Virus record (IMG/VR): IMGVR_UViG_3300024328_000027
Span: 1-34,527 of that record
Strand: one strand, 5' to 3'
Source: a virus
DNA: 34,527 nucleotides
Shown here: positions 16,665-28,512 of the stretch, one piece after another
Layout: the number at the start of each line of letters is the position of its first letter
How positions within the stretch are numbered: position 1 is the stretch's first letter
Notes under the pieces: model-generated
The model's input: the letters and a program-made list of their open reading frames with translations, nothing else
Told to the model about the DNA's origin: nothing
The model's database searches: none
Translations under genes and position numbers: made by a program

Positions 16665-16707
16665 TGACATTAGCCTCTTACTATTAATATATAATAGCCT
16701 ATTGTCA
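16665..16707. repeat. 43-bp near-palindrome, copy 1
   Basis: TGACA at the left edge and TGTCA at the right edge enclose 33 bases. The inner arms read TTAGCCTCTTACTA on the left and TAATAGCCTA before TGTCA on the right, followed by CCCC. The same layout recurs at 17631 and, inverted, at 25408. Each arm could also act as a TGACA-type -35 box. It is probably an operator or a divergent promoter-operator. Confidence 0.75.
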
Positions 16708-16924: not shown

Positions 16925-16938
16925 TAGTACAAACTCTC

Positions 16939-16960
16939 TACCGTTTAACTTCGATAATAT
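16939..16960 (+). promoter_or_regulatory. TACGAT-N8-GATAATAT motif, copy 1
   Basis: The copy reads TACCGT, eight bases, GATAATAT, then TACTGTAATT, with GTACAAAC upstream. It precedes the first 76-aa gene by 115 bases, the longest leader in the set. Confidence 0.6.
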
Positions 16961-17075
16961 TACTGTAATTAAAATTAAAATATAATAATTAAAAAACTCA
17001 AAATAACTACTATTATATCTTGATAATAATTATAAATAAAAATAAAATAATAATAATAACTAAAATTAAATCAAA

Positions 17076-17306
17076 ATGGAAATTTTAAAATCAAAAAGAT
17101 TCGTAGTGCGTAAAAGTTTAATCGGTAAAAATCAAATTATTGAAGTCACATTTAAAAATGGAAAAGTCGCTAAATATAATCATGACGATGCATATAAACA
17201 AATGGAAGCTAAATTAACCAAAATGAATTGTTGGGCGAAATATAAATCATATACTTCTTCTTCAAATATACCAATGAGTGTTAGATCTGTATTAATTACA
17301 GACTAA
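17076..17306 (+). CDS. Early 76-aa protein, copy A of a duplicated gene
   Basis: The product begins MEILKSKRFVVRKSLIG, then VTFKNGKVAKYNHDDAY, a helix (KQMEAKLTKMNCWAKY) and a Ser/Thr-rich end. It is small and basic with a probable beta-alpha fold; no known motif is seen. Copy B at 17890 is about two thirds identical by eye, and the DNA upstream is related too. Being first on the rightward transcript, it is probably made at once on infection, where host-takeover proteins are often found. That role is inferred from position. Confidence 0.8.
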   Translation: MEILKSKRFVVRKSLIGKNQIIEVTFKNGKVAKYNHDDAYKQMEAKLTKMNCWAKYKSYTSSSNIPMSVRSVLITD

Positions 17307-17344
17307 TGCTCGCAGAGTAAAACAATAACTTAAAACAAATAAAT

Positions 17345-17452
17345 ATGCCTTACGAATACAAAATAGAATTAGCTTTAGCTAACACAGATATGGATCTTGC
17401 AGATATTATCGAACTAAGTATCGACGAACTAGACGAGATCATCGGCTTCTAA
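17345..17452 (+). CDS. Acidic 35-aa micro-protein
   Basis: ATG 17345 to TAA 17452 encodes 35 residues starting MPYEYKIELALANTD and ending DELDEIIGF. It is acidic, with a helical hydrophobic face (LADIIELSIDELDEII). It follows copy A by 38 bases and is preceded by an A-rich stretch, like the other genes here. Similar short acidic peptides are found in marine phages; no function is known to me. Confidence 0.6.
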   Translation: MPYEYKIELALANTDMDLADIIELSIDELDEIIGF

Positions 17453-17479
17453 AAACTATAAACCTTTAAAATATACAAT

Positions 17480-17626
17480 ATGGATTTTTACGACAAAGAA
17501 ATAGAGAAATTATACTACACGCTAAGATCAATGATCAATGCAGAATATGATAGTATCTTATACGATCTTGCTCAAAGAGCAGATGACTTAAAGTTTGAAA
17601 ATGTAAACTTAAAACATAAATTGTAG
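17480..17626 (+). CDS. 48-aa micro-protein, helical
   Basis: ATG 17480 to TAG 17624-17626 gives MDFYDKEIEKLYYTLRSM followed by a Leu/Asp/Asn-rich helix ending NVNLKHKL. It is likely a short coiled coil. Its stop codon lies five bases before the second 43-bp palindrome, so this gene closes the first small operon. The function is unknown. An overlapping minus-strand frame covers the same DNA but has no start context. Confidence 0.55.
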   Translation: MDFYDKEIEKLYYTLRSMINAEYDSILYDLAQRADDLKFENVNLKHKL

Positions 17627-17630
17627 GGGG

Positions 17631-17673
17631 TGACAATAGCCTGTTACTAGTCTTATATAATAGCCTAATGTCA
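17631..17673. repeat. 43-bp near-palindrome, copy 2
   Basis: TGACA-N33-TGTCA has exactly the same 43-bp length as copy 1. The left arm is AATAGCCTGTTACTAG, the right arm TAATAGCCTA before TGTCA, and outer GGGGG and GCCC extend the dyad. It begins the duplicated control unit that ends in the second 76-aa gene. A terminator hairpin for the small operon upstream is another reading of this copy, but no U tract follows. Confidence 0.75.
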
Positions 17674-17702
17674 GCCCTATTCTCTGCACAGTAATAGCCG
17701 CT

Positions 17703-17791
17703 GTGTATAGCATAGCTGTATAGCACTTTCAAGAATTCTACTTCGCTCGCAAGATAACTATATTTTATATAACACTTTGTGTGTATAGCAC
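17703..17791. repeat. Three TGTATAGCA elements
   Basis: Units lie at 17703-17713, 17716-17726 and 17781-17791, each (C/G)TGTATAGCA(C/T). They share their sequence with the element at 16915 and occupy the same place, between palindrome and promoter-like motif. The first two are 13 bases apart. Confidence 0.45.
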
Positions 17792-17812
17792 TCTCACTTC
17801 GTACAAACTTTC

Positions 17813-17834
17813 GACGATCGGTTTCAGATAATAT
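17813..17834 (+). promoter_or_regulatory. TACGAT-N8-GATAATAT motif, copy 2
   Basis: The copy reads GACGAT, eight bases, GATAATAT, then AACTGAAATT, with GTACAAAC upstream as in copy 1. It stands 55 bases before the second 76-aa gene. Confidence 0.6.
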
Positions 17835-17889
17835 AACTGAAATTAAAATTAATAATAACTTAAAAATATTAACTTAAAAATAAATAATT

Positions 17890-18120
17890 ATGAGCAACTT
17901 AAAAGCTAAAAGATTCTTCGTTAGAAAATCACTTATCGGAAGTAACACTATTATTGAAGTAACCTTTAAAAATGGTAAAACAGCAAAATATAACCATGAT
18001 GACGCCTTCAACGCCATGAAGGAATCACTTGAAAAAATGGCTTGTTGGGAGAAATATAAAAGCTATACCTCGTCTACTTCAATACCTTTAAAAGTAAGAC
18101 CTTTCTTGATCGAGAAGTAG
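17890..18120 (+). CDS. Early 76-aa protein, copy B of a duplicated gene
   Basis: The product begins MSNLKAKRFFVRKSLIG and keeps VTFKNGKTAKYNHDDAF and CWEKYKSYTSS of copy A, with most changes in the middle helix. The copies differ at about 24 of 76 positions by eye count, so the duplication is old or fast-evolving. The upstream regulatory layout is duplicated as well. Two diverged copies could serve different targets or different timing. The function is unknown. Confidence 0.8.
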   Translation: MSNLKAKRFFVRKSLIGSNTIIEVTFKNGKTAKYNHDDAFNAMKESLEKMACWEKYKSYTSSTSIPLKVRPFLIEK

Positions 18121-18132
18121 CAATAGGTGGTC

Positions 18133-18156
18133 AGAGAGGTGGTTTTACATCTCTCT
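18133..18156 (+). terminator. Stem-loop after the second 76-aa gene, possible terminator
   Basis: AGAGAGGTG pairs with CATCTCTCT (one G-T pair) around a six-base loop, starting 13 bases after the stop codon. A short TTTT lies a few bases downstream. The stem is good but the T tract is weak, so it may be an attenuator or an RNA-protecting structure instead. Confidence 0.4.
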
Positions 18157-18288
18157 TGACTTTTCCTCAAGTAAATATTTTTACACCTCTTAGAAACCAT
18201 TATATAAAGTATTATACGCCTATGTATATATAAGTATATAGAGAAATATTACGAGTAAATAAATAATAATTATAGTGTCCAACACTAA

Positions 18289-18310
18289 TACGGTCACTTT
18301 TAGATAATAA
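18289..18310 (+). promoter_or_regulatory. TACGAT-N8-GATAATAT motif, copy 3
   Basis: The copy reads TACGGT, eight bases, GATAATAA, then AAATGTAAAAT. It stands 26 bases before a 22-codon frame and would also serve the 76-aa gene at 18459. Confidence 0.6.
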
Positions 18311-18336
18311 AAATGTAAAATAATAATAATAATAGT

Positions 18337-18405
18337 ATGAAAACAGTATTAATAATATTAATCGTGCTATTTATTATAGCGTACTTAAAAACAAGAAAAA
18401 TATGA
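18337..18405 (+). CDS. 22-aa membrane micro-peptide
   Basis: The frame MKTVLIILIVLFIIAYLKTRKI is one hydrophobic helix with a basic end, long enough to cross a membrane once. It has the same A/T-rich leader and promoter-like motif at the same distance as larger genes, which is the main reason to believe it. It could insert in the host inner membrane. A chance frame remains possible at this length. Confidence 0.45.
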   Translation: MKTVLIILIVLFIIAYLKTRKI

Positions 18406-18458
18406 CAACTTATAGGGTTAAGGTTAGTTGCGTGAATTAAAAACTAAAGTAAATAAAT

Positions 18459-18689
18459 ATGGAAGATTATACTTGGAATACAAAGGAAGCTATGGCTACA
18501 AATACTGATACTATGAATGACTTTATAGATAATCATATGGCAGAATATTGTGGAGTGGATTATGAAGTAGTACACGAAGATGGTGCTTATGTAGAAATAC
18601 AAAACGACAAGCATATACTTTATGGAGTACACGCAAGTGGAAATGGAGACTTTTGTAGCCATAGAGTTAAATTTGAAGAACTAAAGTAG
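18459..18689 (+). CDS. Small acidic protein, unknown
   Basis: The 76-aa product begins MEDYTWNTKEAMATNTDTM, with a helix followed by beta-like segments (VDYEVVHEDGAYVEIQND, HILYGVHASGN) and two Cys. It is acidic. The start follows an A-rich AAATAAAT stretch. It has no promoter-like motif of its own and probably depends on the one at 18289. I do not recognise a family. Confidence 0.7.
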   Translation: MEDYTWNTKEAMATNTDTMNDFIDNHMAEYCGVDYEVVHEDGAYVEIQNDKHILYGVHASGNGDFCSHRVKFEELK

Positions 18690-18732
18690 CATTAAATATA
18701 ACGGAAAAGTATAACAGTAGTAACGTGAAATT

Positions 18733-18897
18733 ATGAATGAATTACAAATATTAGGAATAGTGATTGTTGGCGGTGTTTTTGGAATAGGTTTTTTAGCCTT
18801 AGCTATTTATGCGACTTTTGATAAAACTCCAAGAACATATATAAGAAAACCGCCTTTAACCTTAAAACGCAAAAAAAATACGGACACTCGTAGATAA
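18733..18897 (+). CDS. 54-aa single-pass membrane protein
   Basis: ATG 18733 to TAA 18897 gives MNELQI, one strong membrane helix (LGIVIVGGVFGIGFLALAIY) and a basic tail (RKPPLTLKRKK). Positive residues after the helix suggest the tail stays in the cytoplasm. The stop codon falls inside the next promoter-like motif. Early phage membrane peptides often act on the host envelope or block superinfection; that is only a suggestion here. Confidence 0.6.
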   Translation: MNELQILGIVIVGGVFGIGFLALAIYATFDKTPRTYIRKPPLTLKRKKNTDTRR

Positions 18898-18900
18898 TAT
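18879..18900 (+). promoter_or_regulatory. TACGAT-N8-GATAATAT motif, copy 4
   Basis: The copy reads TACGGA, eight bases, GATAATAT, then AACTGTAATTAAAATTAAT, the same downstream string as copies 1 and 2. It stands 38 bases before the gene at 18939 and overlaps the end of the 54-aa gene. Confidence 0.6.
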
Positions 18901-18938
18901 AACTGTAATTAAAATTAATAACTTAAAATAAAATAACC

Positions 18939-19124
18939 ATGACTATCCTTAGAATTAGATTTCCAAAAAATTTCGGTAAAGAAGTAAGACAAGCAATGTT
19001 CAAGTCTAAACGAGTAAAAAATACCTTCGAAGTGCACAACAGTGTGCTATACATCAACTCTGAAGACTTTGAAGAAACTGAGAAAATATTTAACAGAATA
19101 GTACTTAACTTTAAATTATTATAA
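18939..19124 (+). CDS. Small basic protein, unknown
   Basis: The 61-aa product, MTILRIRFPKNFGKEVRQAMF to IVLNFKLL, has a beta-alpha-beta-like pattern and net positive charge in the first half. It heads a run of small genes (18939-20091) spaced by only a few bases, which indicates one transcript from the motif at 18879. No family is recognised. Confidence 0.7.
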   Translation: MTILRIRFPKNFGKEVRQAMFKSKRVKNTFEVHNSVLYINSEDFEETEKIFNRIVLNFKLL

Positions 19125-19126
19125 CT

Positions 19127-19330
19127 ATGAAAGAATTTTTAAAAGAACAACTAAACATGCTCGATCGAGGCATAGTGGTAACACCAAACGAAGAATATTT
19201 AAACGACTTTGCTAAAGCTAATGGTGGAACTAATGACTTTTTACTAATGCAACTTGGCAAGAACTATGGTTATAAGCTAGCTTTAGAATTAGTAGCAGAA
19301 AAATTAAATATTAACTTAAACGAACTATAA
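19127..19330 (+). CDS. Small helical protein, unknown
   Basis: The 67-aa product begins MKEFLKEQLNMLDRGIVV and ends LVAEKLNINLNEL. It is mostly helical with mixed charge. It starts two bases after the previous stop, which argues for coupled translation. No motif is seen. Confidence 0.7.
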   Translation: MKEFLKEQLNMLDRGIVVTPNEEYLNDFAKANGGTNDFLLMQLGKNYGYKLALELVAEKLNINLNEL

Positions 19331-19334
19331 AACT

Positions 19335-19583
19335 ATGACTGGAGAATATAATAACTGGAGTTCTTTCCCAACTTGGAGAGTATGGAACGATATACTGGGT
19401 GATATAGAGTTTGAAGAGCCTGTTACTGCCGACGACTTATTAAAAATAGTATACGACGTGGTAATATCTAACCTTGAAATGACTTCTGGTAGTCACCTAG
19501 TAGAAGAATATGCGAGAATATTCATAGCGCTACCTAACTACGAAGAAATAGCTAATGCAATTAACTTTGACTTAAAACACTAA
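19335..19583 (+). CDS. Small acidic protein with NNWSSFPTW motif
   Basis: The 82-aa product, MTGEYNNWSSFPTWRVWNDI onward, is acidic and helical (PVTADDLLKIVYDVVI). The conserved-looking start N(N)W(S)S(F)PTW recalls short phage and plasmid proteins that begin with 'N-x-x-TW' repeats, some of which are found next to anti-restriction genes. The similarity is in the motif only and I do not assign a function. It is a possible host-defence antagonist by context. Confidence 0.7.
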   Translation: MTGEYNNWSSFPTWRVWNDILGDIEFEEPVTADDLLKIVYDVVISNLEMTSGSHLVEEYARIFIALPNYEEIANAINFDLKH

Positions 19584-19588
19584 ATATT

Positions 19589-19762
19589 ATGAAATTAAAT
19601 AAAGAAGAAATAGATGACATCGCTTATTATTTAGACGATGTGTTAGATAAAAGATTCCACGACGCTTGCTTCTGGGCTTTAAGCGATAAATATGGGTATG
19701 ACTTTGACGTAAGTGACGAAGATGTAGCAAAAATTAAAGAAAAACTTAAAAAGATAATATAA
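19589..19762 (+). CDS. 57-aa acidic helical protein, unknown
   Basis: ATG 19589 to TAA 19762 gives MKLNKEEIDDIAYYLDDVL through VAKIKEKLKKII. It is rich in Asp/Glu in the first half and Lys at the end. Its stop codon shares one base with the next start (TAATG), so both are translated together. It opens with an MKL start like the 109-aa and 190-aa genes downstream, which may reflect a common start context. Confidence 0.65.
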   Translation: MKLNKEEIDDIAYYLDDVLDKRFHDACFWALSDKYGYDFDVSDEDVAKIKEKLKKII

Positions 19763-20091
19763 TGAAATTAAAAGAGGTAAATAACGAGTTCCAAGCTTCA
19801 TCATTCCACGGAGTAACCGTCGACTTAATTCCTTCAGACCTTATAGAATTATGTGTAGAGAATAATATACCATATCACGAGAATAATACGGGTGAAGATA
19901 AATGCAATTTTGACTTTGAATTTTATATACCTGATGAAGATATATACTTTACAGTTTATGACTGGAAAGAGTACGAACCGCTTAGAGCAGACTACTGCTA
20001 TATATTTCACATTGGCGCAAAAAATGAATATGCCTCAATAATAGCTAGAGACTATTTACTAAGTGAAATACAAAACGCTGTAACAAAATAA
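19762..20091 (+). CDS. Acidic 109-aa protein, unknown
   Basis: The product begins MKLKEVNNEFQASSFHGVTV. Aromatic and acidic beta-like segments follow (CNFDFEFYIPDEDIYFTVYDW), then a C-terminal helix (ARDYLLSEIQNAVTK). Net charge is strongly negative, as is common in phage inhibitors that mimic DNA or bind host enzymes, but no specific mimicry motif can be seen. It is coupled to the gene before it by a one-base overlap and is the last gene of its cluster. Confidence 0.7.
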   Translation: MKLKEVNNEFQASSFHGVTVDLIPSDLIELCVENNIPYHENNTGEDKCNFDFEFYIPDEDIYFTVYDWKEYEPLRADYCYIFHIGAKNEYASIIARDYLLSEIQNAVTK

Positions 20092-20092
20092 A

Positions 20093-20114
20093 TACAATCA
20101 GCGATCGATAATAT
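20093..20114 (+). promoter_or_regulatory. TACGAT-N8-GATAATAT motif, copy 5
   Basis: The copy reads TACAAT, eight bases, GATAATAT, then TAATGTAATT, with GTAACAAAATAAA upstream. It stands 24 bases before the 190-aa gene. Confidence 0.65.
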
Positions 20115-20138
20115 TAATGTAATTAAAAAATAATAAAG

Positions 20139-20711
20139 ATGAAATTAAAAGAATTTACACATAACGAAGACTACGTAAGATTTAACAGGGAGTTAATTAT
20201 CGAAGTAAACTCTATTATAACTGCAAATGTTGAAGTATGTGGTGGAGTAACAAGTATTAAAAGTGAAAAATATGGTGACGTTATAATATTTGAAGACGCT
20301 GAACCTTACGCTACTTACTCTGTTAATGGTAAGAAATTAAAAGGTAATGGTTTTAGAGAATTTTATAATAAATTATTTTATGGTTCTTTCGAAGAATTTG
20401 ATAAAGAGGTATGTGATTTCGCAGTACTTCAAACTGCTAAAAACTACGATAACCACTTACTATCTCTTAGTAGAAAACAAAAAATTAACTTACTTAAAGA
20501 GGTAATTGACGAAGCTCCTACATTTATATCGGATCAAGGTGAAACTATATTACACCGCCACTGGGCTTGTAACGCAGTGTTAGAAGCATTAGGTGTAAAG
20601 TTTTTACCTTGTAAAAAATACACTATTAAAGACTCTGACGGAAAAACAAGATGGGGCGTTTTAAAAGAAAATTATTTAAACTTATATAAAAGCCTTAAAA
20701 ATGGAGAATAG
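20139..20711 (+). CDS. 190-aa phage protein, unknown
   Basis: The N-terminal part (MKLKEFTHNEDYVRFNREL ... GDVIIFEDAEPYATYSVNG) is beta-rich. The C-terminal half has helices and a His/Cys-containing stretch (ETILHRHWACNAVLEALGVKF) that could bind a metal. The last 11 bases overlap the next gene. It is one of the larger proteins of the early cluster. I recognise no domain, so it is a candidate for host takeover or DNA metabolism by position only. Confidence 0.7.
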   Translation: MKLKEFTHNEDYVRFNRELIIEVNSIITANVEVCGGVTSIKSEKYGDVIIFEDAEPYATYSVNGKKLKGNGFREFYNKLFYGSFEEFDKEVCDFAVLQTAKNYDNHLLSLSRKQKINLLKEVIDEAPTFISDQGETILHRHWACNAVLEALGVKFLPCKKYTIKDSDGKTRWGVLKENYLNLYKSLKNGE

Positions 20712-20967
20712 ATATCACAGAGGTGTGCTATACACACCGATCGAATGGCGTACCTGGAACGGTCACCTTTGTAAAGGCTACGAATGTAGCGATGAGAAAT
20801 TACTTGACGGTTTATTCACAGTATCTTTTCAAGCATACAGTGAAGATGAAATGAAAAGAGAGATCGATCACTATATCGACAACAGAGAAGAGTTGTTAAA
20901 TAAAAAAAGATTAATAGATCGAGCTACAGTATATACATACGAAGAATTAGATTATCCACTAGATTAA
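20701..20967 (+). CDS. 88-aa protein, unknown
   Basis: The product begins MENRYHRGVLYTPIEWRTW, followed by an acidic helix (EDEMKREIDHYIDNREELLNKK) and an acidic end. The start lies inside the end of the 190-aa gene (11-base overlap), so the two are likely co-translated. No family is recognised. Confidence 0.68.
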   Translation: MENRYHRGVLYTPIEWRTWNGHLCKGYECSDEKLLDGLFTVSFQAYSEDEMKREIDHYIDNREELLNKKRLIDRATVYTYEELDYPLD

Positions 20968-20977
20968 AACACATATT

Positions 20978-21172
20978 ATGGAAATAGATTTTACAAAAAT
21001 AGCAAACGTTGAGGTCGATGGTATTGACTTCAACGACTACCCTGACTTCGTAGATGCTTTTATTGCATCAGCAGAGTATGATGGTAGAGAAATGACGGAA
21101 GAAGAGATCGATTATATTAACGACGTACACCTTGACTTTGTCAGTGAGTGTGTTTATAACCACTTATTTTAA
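20978..21172 (+). CDS. Acidic 64-aa conserved-type phage protein
   Basis: The product, MEIDFTKIANVEVDGIDFNDYP through FVDAFIASAEYDGREMTEEE, is strongly acidic. The pattern 'VEVDGID..DYPDFVDAFI.SAEYDG' is familiar from small conserved proteins of marine myoviruses and podoviruses whose function is unknown to me. The next gene begins one base after its stop. Confidence 0.75.
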   Translation: MEIDFTKIANVEVDGIDFNDYPDFVDAFIASAEYDGREMTEEEIDYINDVHLDFVSECVYNHLF

Positions 21173-21173
21173 C

Positions 21174-21470
21174 ATGGGAGCAATAACACCTAGATTTATA
21201 AGAGATGTTATCAATGAAATACTAAACATTGATATAAGTGAAAAAACCAGATTACGTGGTTACTCTGACGCTAGGGCTATATACTATGTACTATGTAGGA
21301 AATACACAACTTATTCATTAGAAGAAATTGGTAAACAAGTAAATAGACATCACGCAAGTGTGCTACACGGTATAAATAATGTATTCCCAGTGATAAACAA
21401 GTCACTATATACAGTATTAAACTCGAGATTTAGAGAAATAATTAAAGAAGAATATACTATAACAAACTAA
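21174..21470 (+). CDS. Stand-alone DnaA domain IV-like DNA-binding protein
   Basis: The start is taken at ATG 21174 (MGAITPRFIRDV), right after the previous stop, and not at an upstream in-frame ATG inside that gene. The 98-aa product matches the C-terminal DNA-binding domain of the replication initiator DnaA: an R(G)YSDARAIYYVLCRKY helix, then YSLEEIGKQVNRHHASVLHGINNV, the helix-turn-helix with the DnaA signature's H-(A/T)-(S/T)-V-L-H core. The AAA+ ATPase domain is absent. It may bind DnaA boxes to redirect or block host initiation, or mark the phage origin. No perfect TTATCCACA box was noticed in the window. Confidence 0.75.
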   Translation: MGAITPRFIRDVINEILNIDISEKTRLRGYSDARAIYYVLCRKYTTYSLEEIGKQVNRHHASVLHGINNVFPVINKSLYTVLNSRFREIIKEEYTITN

Positions 21471-21471
21471 A

Positions 21472-21493
21472 TACGATCACTGATCGATAATAT
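21472..21493 (+). promoter_or_regulatory. TACGAT-N8-GATAATAT motif, copy 6
   Basis: This is the best match: TACGAT, CACTGATC, GATAATAT, then TAATGTAACA. ATAACAAACTAAA lies upstream, and the gene start is 26 bases downstream. Confidence 0.68.
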
Positions 21494-21519
21494 TAATGTA
21501 ACAAATAAAATATAATAGA

Positions 21520-21879
21520 ATGACACGAGAAGACTTAATAACTAAAACAGCAGAATTACAAGCAACATTAGAAGCTAATAAAGCTGCACAAACTCAAATA
21601 AATTTAGAATTAAATGAAATCACAAAAAAATTAGTAAATATGAACAAACCTGTAATATCTCAAGAGCAATTCGATTTAATATATGAAGCGATTGAAGCAG
21701 CTATTGATAACCTTGATTTTAGTGACACTGAAAACTACGAATATGATTTTGGTATGGACTACGACGGTAGAGTATATATAGAGAATATAGATTTTGAGAA
21801 TCGTACAGATTTAGTATCAACTATAGTTTACGAAGTTGAAAGTTTATTTAACATTACAAAACCTGTTAGCAATGAATAA
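21520..21879 (+). CDS. Coiled-coil plus acidic domain protein, unknown
   Basis: In the 119-aa product, residues 1-40 form a heptad-like coiled coil (EDLITKTAELQATLEANK). The rest is acidic with aromatic residues (YEYDFGMDYDGRVYIENIDFE). Dimerisation through the helix is likely. The last eight bases overlap the next gene. No function is recognised. Confidence 0.7.
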   Translation: MTREDLITKTAELQATLEANKAAQTQINLELNEITKKLVNMNKPVISQEQFDLIYEAIEAAIDNLDFSDTENYEYDFGMDYDGRVYIENIDFENRTDLVSTIVYEVESLFNITKPVSNE

Positions 21880-22099
21880 TGAGTTTGATTTACAAGAGAT
21901 AAAAGAAAGAGCTCACGACAAAGCTTTTGCTAAAATAACAATGTTAGGTATTGAGAAGAGCGACTTACTTGACGACATAAAAAATAATAATACAAGTGTT
22001 GTACCTATAGAGACATTAGAAAATATGCTTGAGTCTTGTAAGAAAGAGCTAAAGGTTTGGAATTACATTGCATCATTAATAGAAAAAGATAACATATAA
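21872..22099 (+). CDS. 75-aa helical protein, unknown
   Basis: The start is taken at ATG 21872 (MNNEFDLQEIKERAHDK), which overlaps the previous stop by eight bases. A longer version from 21836 would be hidden deep in that gene. The product is helical and charged, with a single Cys. No motif is seen. Confidence 0.65.
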   Translation: MNNEFDLQEIKERAHDKAFAKITMLGIEKSDLLDDIKNNNTSVVPIETLENMLESCKKELKVWNYIASLIEKDNI

Positions 22100-22109
22100 A
22101 CAAATACAA

Positions 22110-22131
22110 TACGATCACTGATCGATAATAA
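22110..22131 (+). promoter_or_regulatory. TACGAT-N8-GATAATAT motif, copy 7
   Basis: The copy reads TACGAT, CACTGATC, GATAATAA, sharing the whole left part with copy 6. It stands 20 bases before the gene at 22152. Confidence 0.65.
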
Positions 22132-22151
22132 TATAAAATAAATATATAAAC

Positions 22152-22544
22152 ATGGAAAATTTAGAAGACAGATTTTTAACACAACTAAGAAGACGAGATA
22201 TGCTAGTAGATATGTATACTCAGCGTATGTTTGTTGAGTATGACATCAAAGAAATAACAACCCCAAAGCAAAAAGCTAACGGTACTAAAATGTTCAAATT
22301 ACCTGACGGTACACAAATAGCGTCTTATAAAACAGGTTATGTTAGAAAAGTATCTCGCGGTAGAGTTTATCAGTTAAATAAAAAATACTTACAAAATCAA
22401 AGATATACTGTGCTTACAGACAAAGGTTTACAAACTTTTCGCACTACCTGCTGGGCTAGAGAATTAATACATAACCCAATGGCGCGTCTGCTATACATCG
22501 TCGAGTTTGCTAAACGTAATCATAACTTATATAAATTAGTATAA
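22152..22544 (+). CDS. Basic 130-aa protein, unknown
   Basis: The product begins MENLEDRFLTQLRRRDML and has many Arg/Lys (GYVRKVSRGRVYQLNKKYL), with a beta-like centre and a C-terminal helix (MARLLYIVEFAKRNHNLYKL). The positive charge would suit nucleic-acid binding. It is not similar to any family I recognise. It directly precedes the 64-aa gene without spacing. Confidence 0.7.
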   Translation: MENLEDRFLTQLRRRDMLVDMYTQRMFVEYDIKEITTPKQKANGTKMFKLPDGTQIASYKTGYVRKVSRGRVYQLNKKYLQNQRYTVLTDKGLQTFRTTCWARELIHNPMARLLYIVEFAKRNHNLYKLV

Positions 22545-22739
22545 ATGAGTAATTCAGAGGAAATCAAAGATCAAATTGCTAAGAGAGTTGCAGATGCAGT
22601 AGAGGATTATATCCTTGAAGAATCAGAACACTACATGTATTTACTCGGTAATTATGAAGAGTCTAATAACGATTTTATAGCAGATCAAGTAGATATTATA
22701 TATAAAGTATGTAAACTTATGACCAATGAAAATAAATAA
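22545..22739 (+). CDS. Acidic 64-aa protein, unknown
   Basis: The product begins MSNSEEIKDQIAKRVADAV and is mostly helical and acidic, with an ILEESEHYMYLL segment. The start follows the preceding stop immediately. The last bases overlap the next 44-aa gene. No motif is recognised. Confidence 0.65.
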   Translation: MSNSEEIKDQIAKRVADAVEDYILEESEHYMYLLGNYEESNNDFIADQVDIIYKVCKLMTNENK

Positions 22740-22860
22740 ACAAAGAAAATTAACATTAACAGAGTGGATGATTAAACACCAAGTGTCTACATACCACACT
22801 AATATAAATTTAGCTATAGCTCAAGCTATAAACAGTCAAGATAGAAAACAATTAACATAA
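22726..22860 (+). CDS. Basic 44-aa micro-protein
   Basis: ATG 22726 to TAA 22860 encodes MKINKQRKLTLTEWMIKHQ through INSQDRKQLT. It overlaps the preceding gene by 14 bases. The pattern is a short basic helix with a Thr/Trp turn that resembles part of a helix-turn-helix, but it is too short to decide. Marked as likely and not certain because of its length. Confidence 0.5.
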   Translation: MKINKQRKLTLTEWMIKHQVSTYHTNINLAIAQAINSQDRKQLT

Positions 22861-22881
22861 ATGATATAAAAACAAGTAAAA

Positions 22882-23139
22882 ATGGAAACAAAAGAACAAA
22901 AATTACCTAAATGGTTTACCGGACAACTATATGAAGAGGGTTCAACAGTACAAAACCCTTTCAGTGGAGCAGAATATGAGTTAAATAATGTAGAGTTATC
23001 TATGTATGACTTCATATTAGGTGCTAATTTCTTATACGAAAGAGGCGCTGCATCTAGTAAAACAGTTAATGATCTTCGTAAAGGTTTATCTTGGTTTAGA
23101 AAAAACAACGGTGATGCTTATATGGTTCTATTAGATTAG
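22882..23139 (+). CDS. Conserved-type phage protein (FSGAEYELNNVELSMYDF)
   Basis: The 85-aa product begins METKEQKLPKWFTGQLYEEG and continues through FSGAEYELNNVELSMYDFILG and LRKGLSWFRKNNGDAYMVLLD. This pattern is close to a small conserved protein I associate with marine T4-like phages, where its function is unknown. It is acidic to neutral and compact. It lies in the middle-gene region before a promoter-like motif. Confidence 0.78.
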   Translation: METKEQKLPKWFTGQLYEEGSTVQNPFSGAEYELNNVELSMYDFILGANFLYERGAASSKTVNDLRKGLSWFRKNNGDAYMVLLD

Positions 23140-23152
23140 TCTGCAAACATAA

Positions 23153-23174
23153 TACGATTACTATACGATAATAT
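23153..23174 (+). promoter_or_regulatory. TACGAT-N8-GATAATAT motif, copy 8
   Basis: The copy reads TACGAT, TACTATAC, GATAATAT, with TCTGCAAACATAA upstream. It stands 21 bases before the GP88-like gene. Confidence 0.65.
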
Positions 23175-23195
23175 ATTAAAATAAATAATTAAATT

Positions 23196-23807
23196 ATGAG
23201 CGTTTCACTTTTAACCCAAAACTCAAAACTTAAAAAAACATCTAAAGAATTAGGTGTACGTGTATTCAACTTTGGCATACCCGCATACAAATCTGCATCA
23301 GGTAAACTAACTTGCCCCATGGCTGATGGTTGTGTAAAGTTTTGTTATGCAAAAAAAGGTGCCTATATATGGTCTAACGTAAAACCAGCATTCGAAAAAC
23401 GTTATGAGCTAAGTAAGACTGATGAATTTGTTGATAAAATGTATGACGAAATAGTTAAAAAGAAACCAGATTATGTAAGGGTTCACGACAGTGGTGACTA
23501 TTATTCTAAAAAATATCTAAATAAATGGATCGATATTGCTTTATTGTTTCCTGAAGTTAGGTTTTATAGTTATACTAATATGGTTCAGATGTTTTTAGAT
23601 ACTAAATTACCTAGTAATTTCGATGTTATATTCAGTGACTCAGGTAAACAAAAGCATTTAATTGACCCTATTAAGCATAGACATACTAAAATCTTTGCTA
23701 TACACAGTGACCTTAAAGCTGCAGGCTACACTGATGCATCAAAAGTAGATCTTTACGCAACAAAATGGTTTAATAAAACAAATAAAGTAGGATTAATATT
23801 TCACTAA
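23196..23807 (+). CDS. GP88-family phage protein
   Basis: The 203-aa product has an N-terminal LLTQNSKLKKTSKELGVR, then the cysteine cluster C40...C46...C50 in LTCPMADGCVKFCYAKKGAY. This is the signature of the phage 'gene product 88' family first named in mycobacteriophages. Later segments include RVHDSGDYYSKKYL and FYSYTNM, typical of that family. The three cysteines may hold a metal or iron-sulphur centre. The reaction is unknown. It has its own promoter-like motif 21 bases upstream and is followed by two small genes. Confidence 0.8.
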   Translation: MSVSLLTQNSKLKKTSKELGVRVFNFGIPAYKSASGKLTCPMADGCVKFCYAKKGAYIWSNVKPAFEKRYELSKTDEFVDKMYDEIVKKKPDYVRVHDSGDYYSKKYLNKWIDIALLFPEVRFYSYTNMVQMFLDTKLPSNFDVIFSDSGKQKHLIDPIKHRHTKIFAIHSDLKAAGYTDASKVDLYATKWFNKTNKVGLIFH

Positions 23808-23810
23808 AAT

Positions 23811-23912
23811 ATGAGTGACCCAAGAAAAGATTTTATGCAAACATTAATTTACTGTTTTGGCGGTATGGCTTTATTATGGGCTGTTCTATCAATCATATTT
23901 TATTGTTTATAA
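23811..23912 (+). CDS. 33-aa single-pass membrane peptide
   Basis: ATG 23811 to TAA 23912 gives MSDPRKDFMQTLI followed by a hydrophobic helix (YCFGGMALLWAVLSIIFYCL). It begins three bases after the GP88-like stop, which supports translation. Membrane insertion is likely; the role is unknown. Confidence 0.55.
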   Translation: MSDPRKDFMQTLIYCFGGMALLWAVLSIIFYCL

Positions 23913-23949
23913 CACCAAGATAACAAAGTATTTTAATAAATTTTATATA

Positions 23950-24144
23950 ATGAATAGAGATAAACATATATGGGAAGGCTGGACAGTAGGTGACTTCATT
24001 GATGATATAGAACCTATATTTGATATGTGCGCTCCTTTCCTCGATAAACAAAGTCTTAAACGTTGGGTTGCACAAGAACAGCCTTATTACAAAGAACATA
24101 TACCAGAAGTATACAATTACTTCTTAAAAAAATCAGGATTATAA
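23950..24144 (+). CDS. Conserved-type small phage protein (64 aa)
   Basis: The start is taken at ATG 23950 (MNRDKHIWEGWTVGDFIDD), because the longer frame covers the membrane peptide gene. The pattern FIDDIEPIFDM ... LKRWVAQEQPYYKEHIPEVYNYF is familiar from small conserved proteins of T4-like and other marine phages of unknown function. It is acidic and helical. Confidence 0.72.
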   Translation: MNRDKHIWEGWTVGDFIDDIEPIFDMCAPFLDKQSLKRWVAQEQPYYKEHIPEVYNYFLKKSGL

Positions 24145-24165
24145 AACAAATAGAAACAAAAAAAA

Positions 24166-24187
24166 TACGATAAGAAATCGATAATAT
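24166..24187 (+). promoter_or_regulatory. TACGAT-N8-GATAATAT motif, copy 9
   Basis: The copy reads TACGAT, AAGAAATC, GATAATAT, then TAATAATT, with GAAACAAAAAAAA upstream. It stands 21 bases before the KTSC gene. Confidence 0.65.
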
Positions 24188-24208
24188 TAATAATTAAAAT
24201 CAAATAAA

Positions 24209-24433
24209 ATGGAAAACAATTTAACAGAATTTATCACAGTAAAATCTTCAGCAGTAGTTTCTGCATGGTATAAACCTAGTGTACCTACTTTAGTAGTAGA
24301 TTATGTAAACGGATCATCTTATGAGTACTTAGACGTACCTTATTTTGTGTTTGAAGGTTTTAGATCTGCTGAATCTAAAGGTGCATTCATCAACAAGCAC
24401 ATTAAACCTAATTATCAATCTAAAAAATGGTAA
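24209..24433 (+). CDS. KTSC-domain protein
   Basis: The 74-aa product consists of one KTSC domain: VKSSAVVSAWYKPSVPTLVV, then SSYEYLDVPYFVFEGFRSAESKGAFINKHIKPNY. This matches the family pattern 'SS-x-x-Y ... L-x-V-x-(F/Y)-x-x-G-x-x-Y-x-Y-x-x-V-P ... S-x-G-x-(F/Y)-x-N-x-x-I'. KTSC domains occur alone or fused to nucleic-acid enzymes such as lysyl-tRNA synthetases and are thought to bind RNA or DNA. The cellular role in phages is unknown. Confidence 0.85.
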   Translation: MENNLTEFITVKSSAVVSAWYKPSVPTLVVDYVNGSSYEYLDVPYFVFEGFRSAESKGAFINKHIKPNYQSKKW

Positions 24434-24437
24434 ACGT

Positions 24438-24923
24438 ATGAATATATTTTATTTACATTCTGATCCAGTTAAGGCTGCAAATGTACAATATAACAAGCAT
24501 GTTGTTAAAATGATCTTAGAATCAGCCCAGATGCTTTGTACAGCCCATTATGTATATGGTTCTGATGAACAAAAAGCTAATGTTCCATACAGAAAAGCTC
24601 ATTTGAATCACCCATCAACTATATGGGCTAGACAATCTAGATCTAATTACATGTGGTTATACGAACATATGATAGCTCTTGGTAAAGAATATACTAGACG
24701 ATATGGTAAAGAGCATTTGACAATAACGAAATGTAGAGAGTTTTTATCAATACCTCCACAAGAGTTATATGACGAAGCATTTTCTGAACCGCCACAGTGT
24801 ATGCCTGATAAGTATAAGGTTGATAATGATGCTATTACTGCGTATTGGAATTATTATGAAAACGAAAAACACACTGTAAGAAACTCAGATGAACAATTAA
24901 TAACAAGACCTATAACAAACTAA
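24438..24923 (+). CDS. Conserved-type phage protein (161 aa), probable DNA-related
   Basis: The start is taken at ATG 24438 (MNIFYLHSDPVKAANVQYN), four bases after the KTSC stop. The product contains KHVVKMILESAQMLCTAHYV, HLNHPSTIWARQSRSNYMWL and YTRRYGKEHLTITKCREFL. This layout is widespread in phages of many hosts, mostly listed as hypothetical. Conserved His, Lys, Trp and Arg residues suggest an enzyme or nucleotide binder. I do not assign an activity. Confidence 0.78.
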   Translation: MNIFYLHSDPVKAANVQYNKHVVKMILESAQMLCTAHYVYGSDEQKANVPYRKAHLNHPSTIWARQSRSNYMWLYEHMIALGKEYTRRYGKEHLTITKCREFLSIPPQELYDEAFSEPPQCMPDKYKVDNDAITAYWNYYENEKHTVRNSDEQLITRPITN

Positions 24924-24924
24924 A

Positions 24925-24946
24925 TACGATACAGTATTGATAATTA
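24925..24946 (+). promoter_or_regulatory. TACGAT-N8-GATAATAT motif, copy 10
   Basis: The copy reads TACGAT, ACAGTATT, GATAATTA, with ATAACAAACTAAA upstream as in copy 6. It stands 19 bases before the coiled-coil gene. Confidence 0.6.
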
Positions 24947-24965
24947 TTATATAAATAACACAAAT

Positions 24966-25265
24966 ATGACAGATAAAGAATTAAATGATTTAGCAGATTT
25001 AATAGCTAACAAAGTTGTAAAACAGCTAGAGGAAAAACAACTAGAATGGGATCAAAATTTTATTCAAGATGTTGAGGGTTTTGTATCAGACTCAACAATG
25101 AATATTAAATATACCTTTACTGATGAAATAGCGTTATTACAAGAAGAATTAGATATTGTAACAAAAAAACACGATAAAGCTATTGAAAATGAAAATTATT
25201 TAGAAGCTAAAAAGTATTTCCAAAAAATGATAACATTAACAGATAGAATAAAAAAACTTAAATAG
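24966..25265 (+). CDS. Coiled-coil 99-aa protein, unknown
   Basis: The product begins MTDKELNDLADLIANKVVKQL and is almost wholly helical, with heptad repeats (EIALLQEELDIVTKKHDKAI) and a Lys-rich end (DRIKKLK). It is probably a dimeric coiled coil. It shows no catalytic motif. Together with the next 49-aa gene it sits just before the third palindrome. Confidence 0.7.
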   Translation: MTDKELNDLADLIANKVVKQLEEKQLEWDQNFIQDVEGFVSDSTMNIKYTFTDEIALLQEELDIVTKKHDKAIENENYLEAKKYFQKMITLTDRIKKLK

Positions 25266-25274
25266 ACGTAAGAT

Positions 25275-25424
25275 ATGGGAAGATCTAAAGAATTATTTCA
25301 TCATATGAGGGAGAAACAAATGAATAATGATTATCTAGATTATTATTTTTTTTATAAAAAAAAATCTAATTTAAAGAATAAAGAAAATCATTCAGTCCAA
25401 AAAGGGCTGACAATAGGCTATTAA
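25275..25424 (+). CDS. 49-aa micro-protein running into palindrome 3
   Basis: ATG 25275 to TAA 25424 gives MGRSKELFHHMREKQMNND, then YLDYYFFYKKKSNL and a basic Asn/Lys tail. The beginning resembles short 'SKELF..MRE' proteins that I have seen in marine phages. Its final codons overlap the left arm of the third 43-bp palindrome (25408-25450), so the coding sequence shares DNA with a control element. Confidence 0.6.
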   Translation: MGRSKELFHHMREKQMNNDYLDYYFFYKKKSNLKNKENHSVQKGLTIGY

Positions 25425-25450
25425 TATAATATAGTAGGGGGCTAATGTCA
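25408..25450. repeat. 43-bp near-palindrome, copy 3 (inverted), at the start of the HTH gene
   Basis: TGACA-N33-TGTCA again spans exactly 43 bp. In the opposite orientation it aligns with copy 1: TTAGCCCCCTACTA in one arm and TTAATAGCCTA before TGTCA in the other. The right arm covers the ATG of the HTH gene (25445). Read rightward, CTGACA (25407-25412), a 17-base gap and TATAGT (25430-25435) look like a promoter whose start would leave almost no leader. Confidence 0.75.
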
Positions 25451-26089
25451 TACCAAAGAAATTTAAAATACTTAAACAAGCATCGTATAATATATCGTAG
25501 AGATCCTATCAATGATAAACCAACTGAGGTTTATTCTTGGGGTAGCTATTACGAAAATGGTACTCACGAATGCTATACATTGTTTAATAGTAAGGCTAAA
25601 ATAAACACTTATAAGTCTTTAAAATGGCATTTACTAGTTCTTTGGTATTTAAACCCTCAGATGAAACAAAATTTTTTTGAAAATTTATCACATTTTATAG
25701 TGGATATGTCAAATGGATTTGTTACTTTTAATGTGTCTGATCATTCTATTAAATCTATCATATATGAAGTTAGTATGTCTGATCTAGATAAACCTCCTAG
25801 AAATAGAGCTAGGAAAATAATTTTTAAAGAGTTCTCTGGTTTAACAACTGAACAAAAAATGTCTATAGTTGGACAGATGGTTGGTAGAAGCAAAAAAATA
25901 ACTGAAGATGATATTTATCAAGCTATGTTAGATATAAACGAAAGCGGTAAAAAAATAACTAATAAGTCTTTGTCTGATCTACTAAGGTGTTCTACTAGAA
26001 CAATACAGAGAAACACGAGTAACACTTTAAAAAAAGAAAAAGAATTATTAAATGATACATTAATTACTAATGAAAAAATACAACATTAA
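25445..26089 (+). CDS. HTH DNA-binding protein, probable phage transcription regulator
   Basis: The 214-aa product starts with an unknown N-terminal domain (about 1-115, with NGFVTFNVSDHSIKSIIYEV). The C-terminal half ends in a helix-turn-helix (about 165-195: KITNKSLSDLLRCSTRTIQR) followed by a charged helix. The start lies inside the third palindrome, which suggests self-control. The last 20 bases overlap the sigma factor gene. It might act with that sigma factor as activator or repressor of phage promoters, or as a replication initiator. The DNA-binding call is firm and the target is inferred. Confidence 0.72.
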   Translation: MSYQRNLKYLNKHRIIYRRDPINDKPTEVYSWGSYYENGTHECYTLFNSKAKINTYKSLKWHLLVLWYLNPQMKQNFFENLSHFIVDMSNGFVTFNVSDHSIKSIIYEVSMSDLDKPPRNRARKIIFKEFSGLTTEQKMSIVGQMVGRSKKITEDDIYQAMLDINESGKKITNKSLSDLLRCSTRTIQRNTSNTLKKEKELLNDTLITNEKIQH

Positions 26090-26831
26090 AAATTATCTTA
26101 GGTATAAAGATGATGTAAAAAAATCCATTTCGAGAATAGATGGTAAAATGTGGGACGAATATTCAAGAGATGAATTAATTATAAAGTTTTTACCTTTAGT
26201 TGAGAATATTGCTAGAAAATTTTCAACATCACAACAAGCATCGGGAGTATTAACTATAAACGATTTAATTCAAATAGGTTCTGAAGGTTTAGTAAGAGCT
26301 GTTGATAAATTAGACTTTGAAAAATTAAATGAGTCAGATGACATCGAAAAAACATTAAAATCATTCTTTTCAAAACGAATAAAAGGATTGATTAGACGAC
26401 GTATAGACATCAATAGGGGAGACATTAGGATCCCTGAACATAAAATAAACGAAATCAGAAAAAATCCTAAAGATAAAAAAATGGTTGAAATGTTTTTTAA
26501 CTCTATATTTTTATCTATAGATAATAACATCTCAAATGATGACGAAGAAAATATGTTATATCAAATACCAGATAACTCTGAACCTTACAATATGGATTTA
26601 TTAAATATGTATCTTAAAGGTTTAATGAAGAAATATCTAGATCATAACGAATATGAAGTGTTAAGATTATCTTATGGTTTAGATTGTGATAGAGTTCAAG
26701 CAAAAGAAATAGCTTTGCAATTAGGTATTAACGGAATTAGCTCTTATGTTAGAGTTTCTGAGTTGAAAAAACAAGCTGTTCAAAAATTAATAGATAATGT
26801 AGATCACTCACAAGTGCTTGATTATCTGTAA
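26070..26831 (+). CDS. Phage-encoded sigma-70-family RNA polymerase sigma factor
   Basis: In the 253-aa product, region 2 (about 35-112) reads LIIKFLPLVENIARKF ... LTINDLIQIGSEGLVRAVDK ... FFSKRIKGLIRRRI, with the core-binding DLIQIG(S)EGL. A short region 3-like stretch is IRIPEHKINEI. Region 4 (about 190-245) reads LDHNEYEVLRLSYGLD and EIALQLGIN...VRVSELKKQAVQKL, a recognition helix-turn-helix. It would bind host core polymerase and direct it to phage promoters. It overlaps the HTH regulator gene by 20 bases. The TACGAT/GATAATAT motifs are attractive targets. Confidence 0.88.
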   Translation: MKKYNIKNYLRYKDDVKKSISRIDGKMWDEYSRDELIIKFLPLVENIARKFSTSQQASGVLTINDLIQIGSEGLVRAVDKLDFEKLNESDDIEKTLKSFFSKRIKGLIRRRIDINRGDIRIPEHKINEIRKNPKDKKMVEMFFNSIFLSIDNNISNDDEENMLYQIPDNSEPYNMDLLNMYLKGLMKKYLDHNEYEVLRLSYGLDCDRVQAKEIALQLGINGISSYVRVSELKKQAVQKLIDNVDHSQVLDYL

Positions 26832-26872
26832 GATAAATGTAATTTAAACAAATAAAATGTAATTATAATAGT

Positions 26873-27400
26873 ATGAAATTAAATGAAAAACTAAGTAAAA
26901 TTCAAGTTGAATTAAAAGCAAAAAAAAGTAAATTTAACTCTTTTGGTAGATACAACTATCGTTCTGCAGAAGATATATTAGAGGCTTTAAAACCTTTTCT
27001 AAAAGAACATAAGCTTACTGTTAGAATTGAGGAAACAATCCAAGAATTAGCAGGTAACTATATTCTTTATTCTACATCAATATTATCTGATGGTGAAGAT
27101 GAAATACAGACTTCAGCTATTGTTGGAATTGATATGGATCAAAAAGGTATGAACTTACCTCAGAAATTTGGTAGTGCATCTAGTTACGGTAAAAAATATT
27201 CTTTAGGTAACTTATTTTTAATAGATGATACTGCTGATAGTGATGCTACTAACACTCACGGTAAAGCAAAACTTGATTTAACAGGTACAGCTTTAGATAA
27301 AGCTAAAGAATTTGTTAAAAACGGTGGTGATATAAACACTATTAAAAAGAAATACAATGTCACTAAAGAGTTAGAACAAAGTTTAATTAAATTAAAATAA
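26873..27400 (+). CDS. erf: ERF-family single-strand annealing recombinase
   Basis: The 175-aa product begins MKLNEKLSKIQVEL, then FGRYNYRSAEDILEALKPFL, LTVRIEET and the family core MNLPQKFGSASSYGKKYSLGNLFLIDDTADSDA, close to ERF 'QxxGSAxTYxxRYAL'. ERF proteins coat and anneal single-stranded DNA in phage recombination and genome circularisation. The exonuclease gene starts on the last base of its stop codon, and the SSB gene follows. This is a complete phage recombination unit of the Red/RecET type. Confidence 0.9.
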   Translation: MKLNEKLSKIQVELKAKKSKFNSFGRYNYRSAEDILEALKPFLKEHKLTVRIEETIQELAGNYILYSTSILSDGEDEIQTSAIVGIDMDQKGMNLPQKFGSASSYGKKYSLGNLFLIDDTADSDATNTHGKAKLDLTGTALDKAKEFVKNGGDINTIKKKYNVTKELEQSLIKLK

Positions 27401-28134
27401 TGAATAAAGATGAAATATTAAAGAATCTAGAAGACGACGAGAAATACTATGGTGACTATGGTAAACAGTTTTTATCTAACTCAGATATTAGAGCTTTACT
27501 AAATGATCCATTGAATTTTAAAAAACCAATAGTTGGTAATCCAAATTTAATAAAAGGTGGATACTTTCATACATTAGTTCTAGAACCTGGTAAGTTAGAA
27601 AGATATAAAATTATAGATGCTGGTAGTAGAAATACTAAAGCGTATAAAGATTTATCAGGTGGAGAACTATGTTTATTACAAAAAGAAGCCGATGAATTAC
27701 AGTTGTTAAGAGATAAATTAATGGCTAACAATGTTTGTAAAAGTTTAATACAAGACATTGATGTAGAATATGAAGTACCTGGTATAATAAATCTAGAAGA
27801 TGAATGGTGGAAACTAAAAGCAGATATTGTTAACAACACAGAGCAATATGTTATTGATCTTAAAACAACATCTAATTTAGATAAGTTTCAGTATTCAGCT
27901 AGAGATTATAACTATGATAGTCAAGCATACATATATTCATCATACTTTAAAAAAGATATGATATTTATTGCTGTAGATAAACAAAGTCATAAAATAGGTA
28001 TATTTGATTGCTCTCCTGAGTTTTTAGAGAGAGGTAAACAAAAAGTAGAAAAAGCTGTTGAACAGTATAGACTGTTTTATAAGAATCAAGATTTTGATCC
28101 TGCACAGTATTTAGTAACAAAGACGTTATCGTAA
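27400..28134 (+). CDS. PD-(D/E)XK exonuclease (RecE/Exo VIII-like)
   Basis: The 244-aa product begins MNKDEILKNLEDDEKYY, then FLSNSDIRALLNDPLNF and KGGYFHTLVLEPGKLERY, the opening pattern of PDDEXK exodeoxyribonucleases. Catalytic residues likely include D142 (WKLKAD), D153-x-K155 (VIDLKTT) and Q175 (NYDSQAYIYS). It would chew one strand from double-strand ends so that the ERF protein can anneal the other. The start overlaps the ERF stop by one base. Confidence 0.88.
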   Translation: MNKDEILKNLEDDEKYYGDYGKQFLSNSDIRALLNDPLNFKKPIVGNPNLIKGGYFHTLVLEPGKLERYKIIDAGSRNTKAYKDLSGGELCLLQKEADELQLLRDKLMANNVCKSLIQDIDVEYEVPGIINLEDEWWKLKADIVNNTEQYVIDLKTTSNLDKFQYSARDYNYDSQAYIYSSYFKKDMIFIAVDKQSHKIGIFDCSPEFLERGKQKVEKAVEQYRLFYKNQDFDPAQYLVTKTLS

Positions 28135-28143
28135 CAAAAAAAA

Positions 28144-28165
28144 TACGATTTCTAAAAGATAATAA
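28144..28165 (+). promoter_or_regulatory. TACGAT-N8-GATAATAT motif, copy 11
   Basis: The copy reads TACGAT, TTCTAAAA, GATAATAA, with GTAACAAAAAAAA upstream. It stands 29 bases before the SSB gene and is the last copy seen in the window. Confidence 0.65.
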
Positions 28166-28194
28166 AATTATAAATTTTTAAACACAGATAAACT

Positions 28195-28512
28195 ATGGCA
28201 AGTATTATTAACGCAAGTATCAATTTAAATAATATTGATAAAACAAAGATCATTGACGGTAAAAAAGGTAAGTATTTACCTATTACAATTGTCTTAAATG
28301 ATGAACCAGATCAATTTGGTAACCAAGGTCCAATCACAATTGCACAATCTAAAGATGAACGTACAGCTAAAGCTGCAAAAACCTATTTAGGTAACGTTAA
28401 AGTTATTTGGACTAATGGTGATAATGTCGCAGCTGCTCCAAGAGATGATCAACAATCTCAACAAGCTCCAGCTCAATCGTTATCTCCTCAAGAAGATGAC
28501 TTACCGTTCTAA
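28195..28512 (+). CDS. ssb: Phage single-stranded DNA-binding protein
   Basis: The 105-aa product has a beta-rich core (MASIINASINLNNIDKTKII ... GKYLPITIVLND ... YLGNVKVIWTNG), a Gln/Ala-rich linker and an acidic tip ending DDLPF. The tip, like the DDxPF end of bacterial SSB, binds partner enzymes. It would cover single strands during replication with the primase-helicase downstream and help the ERF/exonuclease pair upstream. The product is smaller than E. coli SSB but normal for phages. Confidence 0.85.
   Translation: MASIINASINLNNIDKTKIIDGKKGKYLPITIVLNDEPDQFGNQGPITIAQSKDERTAKAAKTYLGNVKVIWTNGDNVAAAPRDDQQSQQAPAQSLSPQEDDLPF

Follow-up and report, generated by a model that had tools for sequence, protein, structure and literature searches.

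Three-block promoter-like elements in the early arm of a Bacteroidota phage clade co-occur with a phage sigma factor gene

We found twelve copies of a conserved three-block element, all on the + strand, in a 34 527-nt genome fragment of an uncultured marine phage (IMG/VR record IMGVR_UViG_3300024328_000027, positions 1 to 34 527; hereafter the window), and sequence analysis strongly supports the view that these sites are the phage's own promoters. Direct observations are the element itself and its conservation, a signature at the start site, the restriction of the sites to the early arm and their linkage to the gene of a phage sigma factor. We consider it fairly probable that the sites would act as early or middle promoters read by host core polymerase with the phage sigma factor, where recognition by this sigma factor is suggested by the analyses below and the early or middle timing by the order of the genes. 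New here are the presence of a third block and an upstream half that is re-coded from one phage to the next. Very little is known about how Bacteroidota phages, whose hosts have unusual promoters, take over transcription, and no description of promoters of this phage clade was found in the literature searched; the present analysis yields a promoter class that spans the family, together with a predicted start base and a candidate sigma factor.

Twelve sites in the window

The preliminary description of this DNA had listed eleven 22-base sites, and all of them are found where it placed them, with GATAAT kept in 11/11, TAC in 10/11 (the exception, at 17813, begins with GAC) and an invariant spacing. 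It had also proposed a shuffled-sequence scan and a weight matrix as checks. In the window the pattern TAC-N11-GATAAT has 12 matches on the + strand and 0 on the − strand, whereas shuffles do not return similar numbers (0.36 expected by chance, with a maximum of 2, in 300 order-2 Markov shuffles). Between TAC and GATAAT, any other spacing in the range 4–19 gives 0–3 matches in the window. The 12 matches comprise ten of the eleven listed sites, a site at 17008 and a match at 6485, the last of which we reject as a chance match (it is inside groEL, on the wrong strand).

The weight matrix has 44 columns and was built from 370 sites of other phages, with the window left out. Scanning the window with this matrix recovered the same eleven sites and added 17008: the twelve sites have scores of 14.8–41.8, the next best match scores −0.6 with none between, nothing on the − strand is above −6.5, and shuffles give 0.01 matches above 10. 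All twelve matrix sites are on the + strand and none on the minus strand. Judged by its sequence, 17008 is a genuine site, the twelfth, and had been overlooked. The leader lengths given earlier are correct, and the 115-base leader of the site at 16939 had looked odd because of this additional site. The sites occupy the leading part of the early arm, where the genes are small and without known function, ahead of the sigma and replication genes.

Architecture of the element

In the relatives the element has three conserved blocks followed by a purine at a fixed position: TTACAAAC at about −38 to −31 (the −35-type block), AATACGA at about −28 to −22 (an auxiliary block that is often degenerate) and GATAATAT at −12 to −5 (the −10-type box), with +1 assigned to the purine, 26 bases downstream of the T in TAC. 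A purine is found at this implied start in 12/12 window sites and in 432/441 sites (98%) of the relatives, where this position was not used in calling the sites. We also made a selection-free alignment of every GATAATA upstream of the sigma gene, with no demand for TAC (608 on the sense strand vs 104 on the other strand). The three blocks reappear in it. Conservation is higher for the C of TACAAAC (76%) than for that of TACGA (66%), and the purine is found in 92% vs 46% on the reverse strand.

According to the preliminary description the spacing cannot fit −35/−10 boxes. This does not hold: TTACAAAC ends 18 bases before GATAATAT, a sigma-type distance that was missed because the middle block had been paired with the −10 box; given the three-block layout, the N8 is therefore mostly spacer. 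The ACAAA-type string reported upstream is present, but it is not accessory, being the best-conserved upstream block. The TGTAATT reported downstream is present as well, and its G is the predicted start.

Site 1 (16927..16965, + strand as for all the others) has GTACAAAC / TACCG / GATAATAT as its −35-type, middle and −10-type blocks, an implied +1 G at 16965 and a matrix score of 14.8. It is followed by the new site 12 (16996..17034; ACTCAAAA / TACTA / GATAATAA; score 17.0), whose implied +1, an A at 17034, is 42 nt from the ATG at 17076. Site 2 (17801..17839) has GTACAAAC / GACGA / GATAATAT and an implied +1 G at 17839. TACGG is the middle block of both site 3 (18277..18315; GTCCAACA / TACGG / GATAATAA; G at 18315) and site 4 (18867..18905; ACGCAAAA / TACGG / GATAATAT; G at 18905), and TACAA that of site 5 (20081..20119; TAACAAAA / TACAA / GATAATAT; G at 20119). 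The other sites have TACGA: site 6 (21460..21498; TAACAAAC / TACGA / GATAATAT; G at 21498), which is the best match with a score of 41.8; site 7 (22098..22136; AAACAAAT / TACGA / GATAATAA; A at 22136); site 8 (23141..23179; CTGCAAAC / TACGA / GATAATAT; A at 23179); site 9 (24154..24192; AAACAAAA / TACGA / GATAATAT; A at 24192); site 10 (24913..24951; TAACAAAC / TACGA / GATAATTA; A at 24951), the closest site upstream of gene 25445 and the sigma gene; and site 11 (28132..28170; TAACAAAA / TACGA / GATAATAA; A at 28170), which precedes the ssb-position gene at 28195.

Repeated elements before genes could in principle be operators or RNA leader elements (e.g. a translation or decay signal) instead of promoters, and the closeness of the sites to start codons (a median of 12 nt from the implied start to an ATG) would agree with this. 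We regard this explanation as extremely unlikely: the three blocks are at fixed spacing, there is a sharp purine at one position with A-rich leaders beyond it, and some sites are >100 nt from a gene. Other candidates were tried as well. A T7-like or N4-hairpin promoter (a dyad, CGATC-ACT-GATCG, is seen at 21472) was rejected, as the dyad is absent by eye at the other sites and the N8 is variable; a TACRA direct repeat with 11-bp spacing, acting as a dimer operator, is weakened, as its copies vary independently and the second one is lost in several phages.

Distribution in relatives and comparison with host promoters

The window is a 34.5-kb fragment with parts of both arms of the phage, and the related phages are about 60–70 kb. 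Its terminase relates the window phage to Elemovirus, Callevirus and Baltivirus. The layout of a late arm and an opposed arm is found in three out of five relatives (whole contigs, annotated gene by gene), and the order of the opposed arm in these three is small early genes, gene 25445, sigma, Erf, exonuclease, ssb, primase-helicase, ThyA, MazG and NrdB.

TAC-N11-GATAAT is found 428 times in the relatives vs 25 times on the opposite strand, and other spacings give 10–61 matches on either strand. The sites are 2–10 kb upstream of sigma, with none 5–14 kb downstream; they grow sparse towards the replication genes and are absent beyond them. Each of the 74 distinct sigma-bearing relatives for which at least 6 kb upstream of sigma are available carries a site, and 71 carry at least three (median 6); in all 131 distinct relatives there are 493 sites on the sense strand vs 5 on the opposite strand. 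The matrix can serve as an annotation tool that picks out these promoters in the majority of members and gives hardly any false matches. The exceptions to at least three sites are L129, L130 and L179. In L129 and L130, CACGGACTTA replaces TTACAAAC and there is no TACGA block, but the place and GATAATAT are the same; the −35-type block is also altered in L216 and L246 (TTGCAGAC) and in L136 and L145 (TCGAAT). A de novo motif search in low-count loci gave no result, because most of these loci are without the upstream stretch.

The bipartite pattern is not enriched in 150 Flavobacteriaceae genomes (33 vs 37 control matches), and host-type TTG/TAnnTTTG promoters are at chance level in the window. 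The flavobacterial sigma-A box is TAnnTTTG at −12 to −5 (PMC9723704). The phage element shares with flavobacterial sigma-A promoters the register of the downstream box, the A at −11 and the T at −7, but has GATAATAT for TAnnTTTG and TTACAAAC for the TTTG-type block. The earlier proposal of phage-specific promoters unlike the Bacteroidota TTTG/TAnnTTTG type is strongly supported.

A Saprospiraceae MAG contig (L405, 1311-8440) encodes a sigma factor that is 57% identical and has elements of the form TTGCAGAT / AACGA / TATAATAA, in which the layout is kept and the letters differ, −10 box included. Close sigma homologues are also found in MAGs labelled Aliivibrio, Halieaceae and Ilumatobacteraceae (L399–L404); these are probably mis-binned phage contigs.

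A phage sigma factor as candidate reader

The gene at 26070..26831 (+) encodes a 253-aa protein of the sigma-70 family, the candidate reader of the −10 box. This protein is assigned to PHROG 351 (E 1.7e-20) and matches Pfam Sigma70_r2 (5e-5; 23.4 bits vs a cut-off of 24). Its sequence matches in the PDB are SigA and FliA, and Foldseek matches SigA in initiation complexes. Regions 2 and 4 are found, plus region 3 in the predicted model, which is only moderately confident (pLDDT 76).

Among 41 contigs sampled on the motif alone, 29 encode sigma (this count leaves out one weak sigma match at 29% identity). Of the 12 motif contigs without sigma, 11 break off within the motif cluster, at the end where sigma would follow, and the twelfth (G029) starts at ThyA, beyond the sigma position; every sampled motif contig that covers the sigma stretch encodes sigma. 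Five sequenced isolate relatives without sigma likewise lack the motif cluster: Elemovirus, Callevirus (phi38:1), Baltivirus (phi19:3), Maribacter phage Panino and MW202828 have related terminases of 37–64% identity, GroEL/GroES and arms of similar layout, and scanning of these genomes gave no sigma homologue and no motif cluster. Co-occurrence of motif and sigma within one clade could be shared descent.

The preliminary description had named a phage sigma factor or an activator as the reader. The phage sigma is the best-supported candidate reader because of its strict co-occurrence with the motif, and an activator is suggested for the upstream block. The twelve sites would drive rightward early or middle genes, and host core RNA polymerase with the phage sigma (26070-26831) is the most likely candidate to recognise the −10 box. 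The upstream blocks would be read by region 4 of the phage sigma or, alternatively, by a further phage-encoded DNA-binding factor, which would fit their fast change better. The sites are upstream of the sigma gene; therefore, if they depend on sigma, its first expression would come from elsewhere.

This position of the sites before the sigma gene in the arm would also be expected if host polymerase with its own primary sigma were recruited by a phage activator on the upstream blocks, with the phage sigma serving late genes. MotA of T4 is an activator that acts in this way at T4 middle promoters. Such recruitment, which we consider unlikely, would agree with the lack of any site of this class (class A) in 824 kb of the late arm around terL, with the phage-specific upstream block and −13 base next to a constant GATAATAT, and with the fact that sigma region 4 does not track the upstream block. 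However, GATAATAT does not fit the host TAnnTTTG in the same −12 to −5 register, motif and sigma are always together in contigs covering the sigma place, and no second, late motif was found for sigma to serve (a separate late-arm promoter motif was searched for around terL). A general Pfam/PHROG scan of the early proteins gave no match to MotA or AsiA.

The sites head the first-expressed arm, and giant virion-type proteins are present in relatives, as would suit early promoters used by an RNA polymerase that is packaged in the virion and enters with the DNA (a giant protein of 2200–3070 aa is encoded at the far genome end). This we hold to be very unlikely, since the giant proteins examined have no Pfam or PHROG polymerase match, no metal-binding motif of a polymerase could be recognised, the −10/+1 geometry matches a sigma-dependent bacterial polymerase and the part that stays constant is a −10 box of sigma type. 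The giant proteins (L265:4566-13769 and equivalents in other relatives) are encoded outside the window and have no Pfam or PHROG match.

Variation between phages

Sites of one phage are more alike than sites of different phages. The base before GATAAT (−13) carries 1.52 bits about phage identity vs 0.42 in shuffles; in the window phage this base is mixed, mostly C or A. Differences between phages are seen in the upstream block too. Sigma region 2.4 and the −10 box are both nearly constant across relatives, and the recognition helix of sigma region 4 is nearly constant while the −35-type block changes. Since the upstream block changes while the DNA-reading helix of sigma hardly does, a second phage factor may read the upstream block.

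We tentatively suggest a split, re-codable promoter, which we regard as possible rather than probable: a −10 box fixed throughout the clade would be read by the conserved sigma, and the upstream block and the −13 base would be re-coded jointly, at every site of a given phage lineage, with a separate fast-evolving phage factor as reader. If this is true, each phage holds a private early-gene code that is insulated from co-infecting relatives. One promoter half that changes jointly at all sites of a genome provides a natural series for the co-change of code and reader.

Covariation tests single out none of the tested proteins (sigma, gene 25445 and others) for the variable positions: both distance (Mantel) and per-column covariation are weak, and unrelated proteins scored equally high. 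Sigma or gene 25445 as proven reader was rejected on account of this weak and non-specific covariation; the −13 base has a slight excess of covarying sigma columns, insufficient as proof. The top partial correlations with the upstream block (0.23–0.27) are those of the 17076/17890 family and of a family of 63-aa early proteins, which we take as a lead only. The genes at 17076-17306 and 17890-18120, close to the head of the arm, are early paralogues that each encode a 76-aa protein; homologues occur in 57 loci, and there is no family match.

Comparison with known phage promoters

T4 middle promoters have a MotA box at about −30 and a constant −10. The element described here is similar in having a constant −10 box and a separate upstream block, but the phage has its own sigma and the −10 is not the host consensus.

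The closest known case in mode of action is that of phiEco32 and 7-11, with a phage sigma and phage-private promoters that differ between relatives. These podoviruses have two opposed arms and a phage sigma (gp36 in phiEco32, gp47 in 7-11) that works on host core (PMC8948821). Their promoters, tAATGTAtA or GTAAtg-16-aCTA, are found before middle/late genes; between the two phages the promoter sequence has changed with positions kept, and the start is 6–9 bp from the element (PMC8948821). Our phages are like them in being podoviruses with two opposed arms and in having a sigma-70-family gene, a motif before several genes, no enrichment in the host and co-occurrence of motif and sigma, and unlike them in the early-arm position, the three blocks, the constant −10 with a variable upstream block and the Bacteroidota host.

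A palindrome and neighbouring genes

A 42-bp palindrome (TGACAATAG...GGCTAATGTC) at 25408..25449 (+) contains the start codon of gene 25445. The window has two further copies of this palindrome: one at 16666..16707 (−), some 70 nt ahead of the gene that opens the leftward late arm, and one at 17631..17672 (+), in the interval separating the early paralogues 17076 and 17890. Its arms are TGACAATAGGC-n-GGCTAATGTCA (also written TGACAATAG...AGTAAnAGGCTAATGTCA). It is on the start codon of gene 25445 in most relatives, the right arm holding the ATG in 73/74 distinct copies, and as RNA it is predicted to form a hairpin (z −2.7 to −3.2). This palindrome may be a second regulatory element; it resembles an operator, and the regulator that it serves could be gene 25445 itself.

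Gene 25445 (25445..26089, +) overlaps the sigma gene and encodes a 214-aa protein with an HTH-like C-terminal end; a homologue is found in 142 out of 150 sigma loci. The protein has a weak HTH_11 match and a confident AF2 model (pLDDT 88.8) with no fold match in the PDB, and is a candidate for an undescribed conserved regulator.

At 21132-21470 the C-terminal domain of DnaA (domain IV; Pfam Bac_DnaA_C, 7e-13) is encoded as a protein of its own that lacks the ATPase part; dnaA-annotated genes are also found in MW202828 and phi19:3.
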